Positions 28,051 through 30,033 of a stretch of 41,915 nt of DNA are shown here, piece by piece. The stretch spans positions 1-41,915 of the forward strand of contig JALVUQ010000052.1 in assembly GCA_027035575.1 (NCBI GenBank), read 5' to 3'. Within the stretch, counting starts at the first letter, position 1; each line of letters starts with the position of its first letter. This DNA comes from Desulfurellales bacterium. GTDB taxonomy: Bacteria > Campylobacterota_A > Desulfurellia > Desulfurellales > Hippeaceae. Position numbers and translations under genes: made by a program. Below the pieces are notes generated by a model. The model was not told where the DNA came from. It ran no database searches and saw nothing but the letters and a program-made list of their open reading frames with translations.

Positions 28051-28064
28051 TTGATATAAATCAA
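28051..28064. promoter_or_regulatory. FNR/DNR-type operator
   Basis: TTGAT-ATAA-ATCAA is an exact match to the FNR-family consensus (TTGAT-N4-ATCAA). A TATA-like -10 candidate lies near 28090-28096, which places the operator near the -40 to -46 region of the promoter for the gene at 28138, as at activated FNR promoters. CRP/FNR paralogs such as DNR use the same site, so the signal could be oxygen, nitric oxide or another input. Confidence 0.7.
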
Positions 28065-28137
28065 AGAAAAATTTAGTAAAACAGTTACCTTTATACCGCA
28101 TCTTTGGTGTAAAAATTTTTGATTAAAGAGGTGTTTG

Positions 28138-30033
28138 ATGAGTAGATACAAAGTATCGGACGAATGTATAGGATGTAGGGCTTGCGTTGGGGTAGCCGAG
28201 GATAATTTCGGTATCAGAAACAATAAGGCATATGTCAAAAAGCAGCCGACAACTAAACAAGAAGAGGAGTTGTGTTCAAAAGCTTTGGAAGTATGTCCCG
28301 TAAATGCAATATCAAAAACTAAACTAAAAAAGGTTAAAAATGCAGAGGTTGTTTTGGCTTCCTCCAACATAAAGGAGACGCTTGACAGATACCCTGTTTT
28401 GAAGGATGTGCTGATGGAATTGTCACCGAAGTTTAAAAGAATGCAAAATCCTGTCTTATACAATACGCTTGCAAGATTTGCAGACTTCAACGACGCCGCA
28501 AAGGTAACAGGGCTTTCCATTTGTGAAATATTACACACAATAAACGACTATTTGGGAACTAAGGAGGAACTTTTGAAAATGATGCCGGAGTGTATAGAAG
28601 AAAACAAAGATGAAGAACTGCAAAGTGTTGATATAACCTGGACGGAGGACAAAGAGTTATACATATACAACAACGATACAATGGAGGAACTTATCGAGAG
28701 GGTAGCTCTTCTTAAACCGGGAGAAAATATTATTGTCATTTCGAGAGAAAAACCCGATGAACTGTTAAAAATGGCAAAAGGTCTTGAGTTCTTATTTAAT
28801 ATTGAAAAAAACAGGGAGTATAGAATCTCTATTTTTAACCCCAAAAAAGAACAACCGATTCTTTCCCGGAAGGAGAGGAAAGACACTTTTGATGTGCTGG
28901 ATGTAAGAAATGCAGACCGTGACCCGTTCGACATAATAATGAAAAAAGCATACGAAATTAAGGAGGAAGAAGGTTTTGCACTTGTCCAACGATTCGAACC
29001 GTATCCTATAATAAATATGTTAAGCGAAATGGGATTTGAGTATGAAACAGTCAAAAAAGGAGAATCCGAATTTTGGGTATATTTTTATAAAAAACCGAAT
29101 AATGAAGGCGAAAAAAGGTTAGAAAAAAAGAAGGTGGATGTCGTTATACAGTCGGCTACGCCTGTGGCATATCCTATTATTATGAGACTTTTGCAATCTG
29201 AAAATTTGAAAAATACAATTAACATAAAAGAGTTGAAGGTGTGGGAAGAAACGGAAAAACACCTTGCATGGATTACCAACAAAAAAGCAGATATCAGCTT
29301 TTCTGCCGTTATAACCGCCGTTAAACTAAAAAACAGCGACATAAAAATTCCTGGGCTCTTTGTTTGGGATAACTTCGTTTTGTTGAGCAGAAAGAATATA
29401 AGCGGGTTTAAAGATTTGATAGGAGACAAAATATACCTTCCTCTGTTTGAGGAGGCTCCTCCGGCTAAAATTACAAAATACCTGATTAAAACGGAGGGGT
29501 TGAATCCCGGTGATTTTGAATTTGTTTACGGAAAACCGTTTGGCAGACCCGAACAAATATATAAAGATTTTGTGGAATCGAAAGCAGAAACCGTTGTATT
29601 AAGAGAGCCTGAAGCAAGTTATGCCGTAAAGATTATGCGCGACAGGAAAGAGAAAATATCCGTTGTTTCCTATAACGAGTTATGGAATAAGGCTAACGAA
29701 GGATTTGGAAAATTCCCAAATGCCGGTATAGTGTTTAAAGGAGAGTTTGTAAGGCAGCATCCTGAAGCGGCTAAAATGTTTATAGATGAACTAAAAAAGG
29801 CAATAGTTTGGGTTAGGGAAAATAAAAAAGAGGCTGCAAAACTATCATTTGATATAATGCGTCAGCCGATTGACAGGGTAGAGCTGTTCTTGGAAATTGT
29901 AAATTTTGACTATATGGAAGGTGAAGAACTCATTGAAAAGGTTAAAAGCTACTTTGAAGTGTTAAATAAAAACGGTATCGCCGATGTTAAAATTAATGAT
30001 GAGTTGCTTGATATGTTTAGGTTAAACGTTTAA
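28138..30033 (+). CDS. Ferredoxin / DUF1858-like / DUF2249-like / periplasmic-binding-protein-like fusion
   Basis: The 631-residue cytoplasmic protein has four parts. Residues 1-60 are a single-cluster ferredoxin, Cys10-x2-Cys13-x2-Cys16 and Cys53-Pro. Residues about 76-140 resemble DUF1858 (YPVLKDVLMELSPKFK and AAKVTGL). Residues about 160-318 include a DUF2249-like unit (LDVRNADRDPFD, RFEPYPIINMLSEMGF), perhaps preceded by a degenerate copy. Residues about 333-631 resemble an ABC-type substrate-binding domain of the NMT1/SsuA kind (ADISFSAVITAVKL, AAKMFIDELKKA). There is no signal peptide or membrane helix, so the binding domain would work in the cytoplasm, which is unusual. The ATG is set by GAGG at 6-nt spacing. 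An FNR-type site lies upstream. I know of no characterised protein with this order. Confidence 0.75.
   Translation: MSRYKVSDECIGCRACVGVAEDNFGIRNNKAYVKKQPTTKQEEELCSKALEVCPVNAISKTKLKKVKNAEVVLASSNIKETLDRYPVLKDVLMELSPKFKRMQNPVLYNTLARFADFNDAAKVTGLSICEILHTINDYLGTKEELLKMMPECIEENKDEELQSVDITWTEDKELYIYNNDTMEELIERVALLKPGENIIVISREKPDELLKMAKGLEFLFNIEKNREYRISIFNPKKEQPILSRKERKDTFDVLDVRNADRDPFDIIMKKAYEIKEEEGFALVQRFEPYPIINMLSEMGFEYETVKKGESEFWVYFYKKPNNEGEKRLEKKKVDVVIQSATPVAYPIIMRLLQSENLKNTINIKELKVWEETEKHLAWITNKKADISFSAVITAVKLKNSDIKIPGLFVWDNFVLLSRKNISGFKDLIGDKIYLPLFEEAPPAKITKYLIKTEGLNPGDFEFVYGKPFGRPEQIYKDFVESKAETVVLREPEASYAVKIMRDRKEKISVVSYNELWNKANEGFGKFPNAGIVFKGEFVRQHPEAAKMFIDELKKAIVWVRENKKEAAKLSFDIMRQPIDRVELFLEIVNFDYMEGEELIEKVKSYFEVLNKNGIADVKINDELLDMFRLNV

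Follow-up and report, generated by a model that had tools for sequence, protein, structure and literature searches.

A conserved fusion of ferredoxin, DUF1858, DUF2249 and a binding-protein fold with a probable place in the nitric-oxide response

Introduction

What would a substrate-binding domain of the kind used by ATP-binding cassette (ABC) importers do in the cytoplasm, at the end of a chain that begins with a ferredoxin? The question is raised by one gene in a 41,915-nucleotide stretch of DNA from a Desulfurellales bacterium (GenBank assembly GCA_027035575.1, contig JALVUQ010000052.1, positions 1 to 41,915; hereafter the window, its genome being G000). The open frame at 28138–30033 on the + strand encodes a 631-residue product (hereafter the fusion protein), in which a ferredoxin domain, DUF1858, DUF2249 and a type II binding-protein domain follow one another. 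Judged from sequence comparisons, the fusion protein probably belongs to a nitric-oxide response. The reading that we favor, which we hold to be about evenly balanced between right and wrong, is that it acts as a cytoplasmic effector in the nitrosative-stress response of strict anaerobes, fed by its ferredoxin domain and acting on a ligand.

Domain organization and predicted structure of the fusion protein

The whole coding sequence (28138–30033, +) has an ATG start, 631 codons and a stop codon at 30031–30033, and homologues align with it from end to end; the sequence AGAGGTG at 28127–28133 (+), read directly, is the likely ribosome-binding site. Residues 1–62 (28138–28323, +) form a single-cluster [4Fe-4S] ferredoxin domain, which scored above the curated Pfam cut-off as Fer4_13 (residues 8–59, E = 6.5e-14), has the CxxCxxC motif and distant Cys-Pro of that family, and matches ferredoxin I of Protein Data Bank (PDB) entry 1dax (E = 5.5e-5). 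In alignment A1, composed of 39 family sequences (32 with and 7 without the ferredoxin domain), Cys10, Cys13, Cys16 and Cys53 are cysteines in 32/32 ferredoxin-bearing members. DUF1858 spans residues 76–131 (28363–28530, +; Pfam E = 2.2e-11) and matches PDB entry 2fi0 by sequence; it lay outside the fold-search matches listed. DUF2249 spans residues 253–314 (28894–29079, +; Pfam E = 3.6e-9). The stretch between these two domains, approximately residues 172–235 (28651–28842, +), gave no Pfam match of its own in the fusion protein; in the models it repeats the β-α-β-α-β-β order of DUF2249 and is therefore described here as a first, degenerate DUF2249-like unit. Proteins of a sister subfamily have two DUF2249 stretches that are scored by Pfam. 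Because DUF1858 and the second DUF2249 were scored and the first unit repeats the DUF2249 fold order, the middle of the fusion protein is a DrpB-like DUF1858–DUF2249–DUF2249 module.

The last domain (residues 333–631; 29134–30030, +) was weak by sequence alone, with the Pfam NMT1 model matching residues 378–566 at E = 1.5e-4 and 22.2 bits against a cut-off of 20.5; its assignment as a type II binding-protein (NMT1/THI5-like) domain rests on this match together with fold matches at Z 20–27 and conservation. The AlphaFold2 model, built from 39 aligned family members, had a mean predicted local distance difference test (pLDDT) score of 82.7 and a predicted template modeling (pTM) score of 0.59; in it the individual domains are predicted well, but not their positions relative to one another. 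In the fold search, residues 332–629 matched PqqT with a Z score of 26.8, a root-mean-square deviation (rmsd) of 2.6 and 282 aligned residues. Further matches to the binding domain were SsuA (Z 23.8, rmsd 3.1, 278 aligned), Thi5 (Z 23.4, rmsd 4.3, 285 aligned), the cytoplasmic regulatory domains of CmpC (Z 22.4, rmsd 3.4, 279 aligned) and NrtC (Z 21.0, rmsd 3.6, 282 aligned), and NrtA (Z 21.8, rmsd 3.5, 283 aligned), the last at 12% identity and hence a match by fold only. The modeled C-terminal 300 residues thus have the type II binding-protein fold. The fold of DUF2249 resembles that of TusA/SirA (Z 9.7 to 8.0 for the first four matches listed), as in the TsuB part of 8k1r (Z 9.7, rmsd 2.0, 73 aligned). 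Foldseek with a second model gave no match at E ≤ 0.001. The DUF2249 of the fusion protein contains no cysteine and so lacks the sulfur-carrying cysteine that marks the TusA/SirA carriers.

Conservation within the family is highest in the binding domain, where 54 of the 228 positions of residues 333–560 are invariant in all 39 sequences; the corresponding figures are 14/78 for DUF1858, 3/76 for the first DUF2249 unit and 8/71 for the second. The invariant polar residues of the binding domain include E373, K374, H375, D411, N412, R470, R489, E490, E492 and N528. In the model of this domain, 41 of its 59 invariant positions fall at the end of a strand or directly behind it, compared with 127 of all 299 positions, and the invariant polar residues are predicted to line the ligand cleft, which in such folds is found there. 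Cys129, inside DUF1858, and Cys152, after it, are invariant in 39/39 sequences and hence in both subfamilies; the fusion protein has no cysteine after residue 152.

The initial annotation, made from the sequence alone, had placed ferredoxin, DUF1858, DUF2249 and a substrate-binding domain in one frame, with a redox module at Cys10, 13, 16 and 53 and a binding domain kept in the cytoplasm for want of a signal peptide. All four domains scored above their Pfam cut-offs, so these matches hold in profile searches, and the fold search settled the last one; the four cysteines proved invariant, and no signal sequence was visible by eye. The degenerate DUF2249-like unit and the invariant Cys129 and Cys152 go beyond that annotation. 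No NCBIfam model scored above its cut-off for the fusion protein.

A putative regulator box shared with hcp

The sequence TTGATATAAATCAA at 28051–28064 (+), 87 bp before the ATG, is an exact match to TTGAY-N4-ATCAA and a putative Crp/Fnr-family (HcpR-like) box. A 68%-identical relative in another genus of the window's family (genome G004) has TTGACATAAATCAA at −75. Upstream of hcp in G000, G004 and a further genome, G002, we found TTGACCTACATCAA, which in G000 and G004 lies in the intergenic region shared by hcp and a divergent Crp/Fnr gene. Each of the three genomes has exactly one gene over the PF13545 cut-off, and in G000 this is the Crp/Fnr gene divergent from hcp. Exact TTGAY-N4-ATCAA sites number 14 in G000, of which three are intergenic and at most 100 bp before a start, namely, those of the fusion gene, of hcp/crp and of a relA/spoT-like gene (9 bp before it). 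G004 has 16 exact sites; the two that are intergenic and within the same distance are again those of the fusion gene and hcp/crp, and one further site overlaps the start of a frame. Separately, an exact Crp/Fnr-like palindrome 9 bp before the relA/spoT-like gene was seen in two genomes of the window's genus (L049 1501, L054 1501). In front of the ferredoxin-bearing family members from Bacteroidales, an archaeon and spirochaetes, no exact box of this kind was found, but a few with 1–2 mismatches were.

The published regulator of hcp and frdX is the Crp/Fnr protein HcpR, whose consensus is TTGACnnnnGTCAA in delta-proteobacteria; that of HcpR2 is GTAACnnnnGTTAC (PMC1274295). The window box is one base off this delta-proteobacterial consensus in each half-site, and the hcp box is one base off in total. 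In C. difficile, hcpR is reported to confer protection against a nitric-oxide donor, and an hcpR mutant to show lower levels of hcp and frdX (PMC12915319). A Crp/Fnr-family box common to the fusion gene and hcp, by which we would assign the gene to an HcpR regulon, is predicted in G000. Because the same kind of box stands at both genes and that of hcp lies beside the divergent Crp/Fnr gene, nitric oxide would switch on both.

Distribution of the family and the sister subfamily

Scanning the genome collection with a sequence pattern yielded 18 loci: 17 were at 52–68% identity, and the remaining one, from a metagenome-assembled genome (MAG) labeled Desulfurellaceae (L001), encodes a protein 91% identical to that of the window. 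Proteins at 60–68% identity are found in Desulfurellaceae, Bacteroidales, spirochaetes, Fermentibacterota, Neomarinimicrobiota and one archaeon. Whole-genome searches located the family, with all hits at E ≤ 1e-60, in 28/344 genomes of Bacteroidales (the order of L018), 5/199 of Neomarinimicrobiota (the phylum of L007) and 3/247 of the spirochaete phylum (that of L017). In the window's own family, 5/16 genomes have it, two of these five as contig-end pieces. Plasmid records held no full-length homologue; seven records gave partial matches. We rejected a chimera or local assembly error because numerous genomes encode full-length homologues and because the downstream neighbor of the fusion gene is conserved in a MAG of the same genus. 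By these comparisons the fusion is a conserved family and no oddity. In the tree, the archaeal protein pairs with Neomarinimicrobiota (support 0.98) among Bacteroidales, and one protein of the spirochaete phylum pairs with a Bacteroidales one (support 0.999); since the tree mixes phyla with good support, it suggests transfer between phyla.

The seven A1 members without ferredoxin form the sister subfamily, whose proteins have approximately 570 residues and are 39–45% identical to the window protein. A gene for hcp lies within 2 kb in 4/7 sister loci (L109–L112), a Crp/Fnr gene is present in 3/7, and at one locus the surrounding 8 kb also encode a flavodiiron protein and a protein resembling rubredoxin reductase. 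At three of the seven (L110, L111 and L112), a separate gene for a 62-residue ferredoxin ends 35–74 bp before the start; the L112 ferredoxin and the ferredoxin domain of the fusion protein share 42% identity over 59 residues. The upstream sequence of L109 extends for only 238 bp. Farther upstream in L110–L112, between the ferredoxin gene and the regulator gene, lies GTAAC-N4-GTTAC, which equals the HcpR2 consensus (PMC1274295). One gene in the window thus appears as two neighboring genes in sister loci, a classical sign of parts working together; because they are fused in the window and adjacent in L110–L112, the ferredoxin and the rest of the protein would be expected to cooperate.

Relatives of the two halves

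Tandem-DUF2249 proteins lie behind nar in Thermus, by norD, nirK, NnrS and a Crp/Fnr gene in Shinella, and with a Crp/Fnr gene and a pseudoazurin gene in a third region, from Paracoccus. COG4309 is taken here to be DUF2249. Published work describes COG4309 in NsrR and NnrR regulons, co-transcribed with nor genes (PMC1274295), the induction of four DUF2249 genes in denitrifying Haloferax mediterranei (PMC11218638), a DUF1858 gene among those falling in a Bradyrhizobium nnrR mutant (PMC6710368), and DrpA/DrpB as proposed nitrate sensors (PMC6282519). As side observations, in L035 (1258–3251) and L038 (1264–3254) a tandem-DUF2249 protein is directly followed by a many-helix membrane protein whose COX1 match is weak at most, and a hypothetical gene similar to the latter in size precedes the tandem-DUF2249 protein beside the nor and nirK genes of Shinella (L147).

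For the binding domain, 12 regions with relatives were inspected out of 59 plus 7 records, and 11 of them were annotated. NnrS occurred in 8/11 annotated regions, a Crp/Fnr gene in 5/11 and a TonB receptor in 5/11, and one region had hcp, ferredoxin and hemerythrin genes. A gonococcal TonB-receptor gene, possibly tdfF, lies beside a relative of the binding domain. The relatives' operon order is an optional TonB receptor, binding protein, permease, ATPase and NnrS. Among stand-alone proteins, these NnrS-linked binding proteins come nearest to the last domain in sequence (approximately 25% identical), and most share the E-P-x-x-S/T-x-A and P-x-A-G motifs with it; they differ in carrying N-terminal export sequences (by eye), in having permease and ATPase neighbors, and in lacking the cleft residues that are invariant in the fusion (TEKH, WDNF, FGRP and REPE). 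From the neighbors and literature of their relatives, both halves of the fusion separately belong to nitrogen-oxide gene sets, and the joining of a DrpB-like and an NnrS-linked family in one chain suggests that both act on the same thing.

Campylobacterota and Proteobacteria repeatedly carry this ABC gene set (binding protein, permease, ATPase, NnrS) on plasmids, frequently together with a TonB receptor (L136 1872–6969, L137 3863–10112, L138 5998–9699, L141 5917–9648, L142 3760–9653, L143 5887–12182 and L144 5878–9680). We know of no described cargo for it. The set may link NnrS to metal-complex import; for a metal-complex ligand there is only a hint, from the relatives' TonB receptors and one neighbor with a FeoA domain (L040). 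On a Paraclostridium plasmid (L129 3017–9318), a 1282-residue protein resembling acyl-CoA dehydratase activases is encoded between a Crp/Fnr gene and binding-protein, permease and ATPase genes, with hcp, ferredoxin, hemerythrin, NifU and DUF1858 genes nearby.

Gene neighborhoods of the main subfamily

Neighbors of the family were counted within 8 kb at 51 loci, the flanks having a median of 8.8 kb in all and often being cut by contig ends; each seed of the counts came from one of the same 51 loci. In L018 (Bacteroidales), the genes for Rrf2, norB, a hemerythrin/PAS protein, the fusion protein and a cupin stand in a row, and the norB product has COX1 plus the NorB cytochrome-c-like domain. Rrf2 and norB also lie near the fusion gene in L014 and L104, and L093 has a norB fragment at a contig end. 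In Desulfovibrio desulfuricans, a cupin and a hemerythrin/PAS protein encoded next to hcp are reported to be induced by nitric oxide (PMC5701242). Flavin adenine dinucleotide (FAD) reductases lie near the family in 8/51 loci.

Two other arrangements were noted. In L014 (5058–8549), a PepSY_TM membrane protein and the family protein share one open frame, and in L104 and L093 the former is encoded by the adjacent gene. In G004 (L042 243–13155), the family gene is preceded by moeA-like, two aldehyde-ferredoxin-oxidoreductase-like, ThiS/ThiF-like, radical S-adenosylmethionine and ferredoxin genes (by eye).

Several results weigh against a role in the nitric-oxide response. Within 8 kb, norB was found in only 4/51 loci and hcp in 4/51; hcp was present in 8/22 holder genomes, and the NorB model matched in 5/17, none of them from the window's family. 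Hcp and NorB were therefore each rejected as an obligatory partner. Mrp-type ATPase and NifX-like genes occur in 8/51 loci (L094, L095, L097, L099, L010, L011, L006 and L101), a context for which we know of no nitric-oxide meaning. The exact palindrome is not over-represented in G000 (5 seen against 5.5 expected from base composition), so that only its positions, in two genera, count as evidence. The sister subfamily does without the ferredoxin domain, and in the flanking DNA examined no separate ferredoxin adjoins it in L118, L124 and L126.

Comparison with an importer, FrdX and Thi5

The role of a secreted ABC substrate-binding protein was rejected, as the domain ends a fusion behind a ferredoxin with no visible export signal. 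The window neighbors of the gene, a moeA-like gene directly upstream and a type II secretion gene (names by eye), are not a permease and an ATPase. The ferredoxin domain can be likened to FrdX, a ferredoxin(-like) protein under HcpR control adjoining hcp; FrdX is described as a separate protein, whereas here the ferredoxin is fused to further modules (PMC1274295, PMC12915319).

For the function of the fusion, the initial annotation had suggested either a redox-gated ligand sensor or an enzyme on a binding-protein fold, the latter by comparison with THI5-like proteins. Thi5, the hydroxymethylpyrimidine (HMP)-phosphate synthase, does have the same fold. The active site of Thi5 includes a CCCFC-type cysteine cluster, the pyridoxal phosphate (PLP) lysine 62 and histidine 66. 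A HMMER alignment places S and T opposite K62 and H66, and the LPNAG region opposite the cysteine cluster. The checked residues are thus absent; a Thi5-type enzyme was rejected, and the comparison does not extend to the chemistry.

Discussion

The initial annotation had hinted at nitric-oxide-related systems for the two middle domains, and gene neighborhoods, the shared control site and the literature have borne this out. All three parts of the protein, the ferredoxin, the DrpB-like module and the binding domain, are also met singly in nitrogen-oxide gene sets. In the mechanism that we infer, nitric oxide would act through an HcpR-like regulator on the hcp and fusion-gene promoters and switch both on, and the fusion protein would be made together with Hcp. 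Its cluster would be reduced by an NAD(P)H-linked flavoprotein, which is a recurrent neighbor, or by the anaerobic ferredoxin pool. The DUF1858/DUF2249 part would connect the cluster with the binding domain or with a partner. In the near-invariant polar cleft of the binding domain, a small ligand that arises or is set free under nitric-oxide stress would be held and then reduced or passed on. That the protein is a redox effector of this kind comes, in our estimate, just short of an even chance.

The main rival, which we consider somewhat unlikely, sees the protein as a sensor or regulator in the cytoplasm. Its binding domain would sense nitrate, nitrite or another ligand, the cluster would sense redox state or nitric oxide, and DUF1858/DUF2249 would signal to a partner, as in NasS-NasT and in the proposal made for DrpA/DrpB. 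NasS is described as a binding protein without an export signal that senses nitrate and nitrite (PMC3795266), and the fusion protein shares with it the fold and, by eye, the missing signal; the C-terminal regulatory domains of NrtC and CmpC are likewise cytoplasmic, with the same fold, and match at Z 21–22. All three belong to another binding-protein branch, and the fusion protein differs in adding redox and DUF modules and in having no NasT-like or ATPase part. DrpB of Thermus thermophilus has the same order of three middle units (DUF1858 and two DUF2249), aligns with the fusion protein in BLASTP at E = 1e-12 over DUF1858 and 2e-9 over DUF2249, and, like it, belongs to a nitrogen-oxide gene set. 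Loss of DrpA and DrpB is reported to make the expression of dnr and nar nitrate-independent (PMC6282519). DrpB is, however, described as membrane-bound (PMC6282519), and it has neither ferredoxin nor binding domain nor the counterparts of Cys129 and Cys152. NasS is thus a precedent for sensing by a binding protein in the cytoplasm, and DrpB for the use of the middle module in sensing. Against a sensor, the fusion gene is itself preceded by a regulator box, the Pfam scan of the fusion protein scored no DNA-binding, RNA-binding or ANTAR domain, and no response regulator or antiterminator adjoins the gene in the window (by eye). It is because the protein lies downstream of a regulator and has no DNA- or RNA-binding output domain that we prefer an effector to a primary sensor.

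A protein for the repair or handling of iron or iron–sulfur clusters, which would take up iron or nitrosylated iron freed by nitric oxide and return it, with the ferredoxin domain as reductant, seems distinctly unlikely. It would account for the TonB receptors in 5/11 regions of binding-domain relatives and the single FeoA-domain gene (L040), for the Mrp-type ATPase and NifX genes in 8/51 loci, and for the invariant Cys129 and Cys152; the hemerythrin/PAS neighbor in L018 resembles the nitric-oxide-induced, YtfE-like Ddes_1165 (PMC5701242). However, no metal-binding motif is demonstrable in the cleft, and TonB receptors serve many cargoes besides iron. That the fusion is a general anaerobic redox protein, whose nitric-oxide neighbors would reflect chance or shared anaerobic FNR-type control, is highly improbable: the box is also an FNR-type sequence, the gene in G004 follows tungsten-enzyme-like (aldehyde ferredoxin oxidoreductase, by eye) and flavoprotein genes, and many loci have no nitric-oxide gene, but the only PF13545 gene above the cut-off in G000 adjoins hcp, and three independent kinds of evidence (the family itself, the sister subfamily and the relatives of each half) point to nitrogen oxides.

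The effector reading can be carried further, in a form that we regard as rather unlikely. The binding protein of an ABC importer, kept in the cytoplasm and wired to a ferredoxin through a DrpB-like module, would have become a nitrosative-stress reductase that works beside Hcp and NorB, or in their place, in strict anaerobes, with a nitrogen-oxide-derived or iron-nitrosyl ligand as its substrate, and would have spread between phyla.

What is new here is the architecture; the setting is the known nitrosative-stress response. The initial annotation knew of no described protein with this domain order, and we found no paper on the order ferredoxin–DUF1858–DUF2249–binding domain in the open-access literature, where nine papers mention DUF2249 or DUF1858. 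To our knowledge, DUF1858 and DUF2249 have no known function, and the Hcp-based nitric-oxide defence of anaerobes has neither a full parts list nor a settled electron path. The exact function of FrdX is called unclear (PMC12915319). The fusion protein brings a ferredoxin, DUF1858, DUF2249 and a ligand-binding domain together in one soluble protein under apparently the same control as hcp. Because all these parts lie in one chain, a single purification could reveal the ligands of the domains and the route of the electrons.

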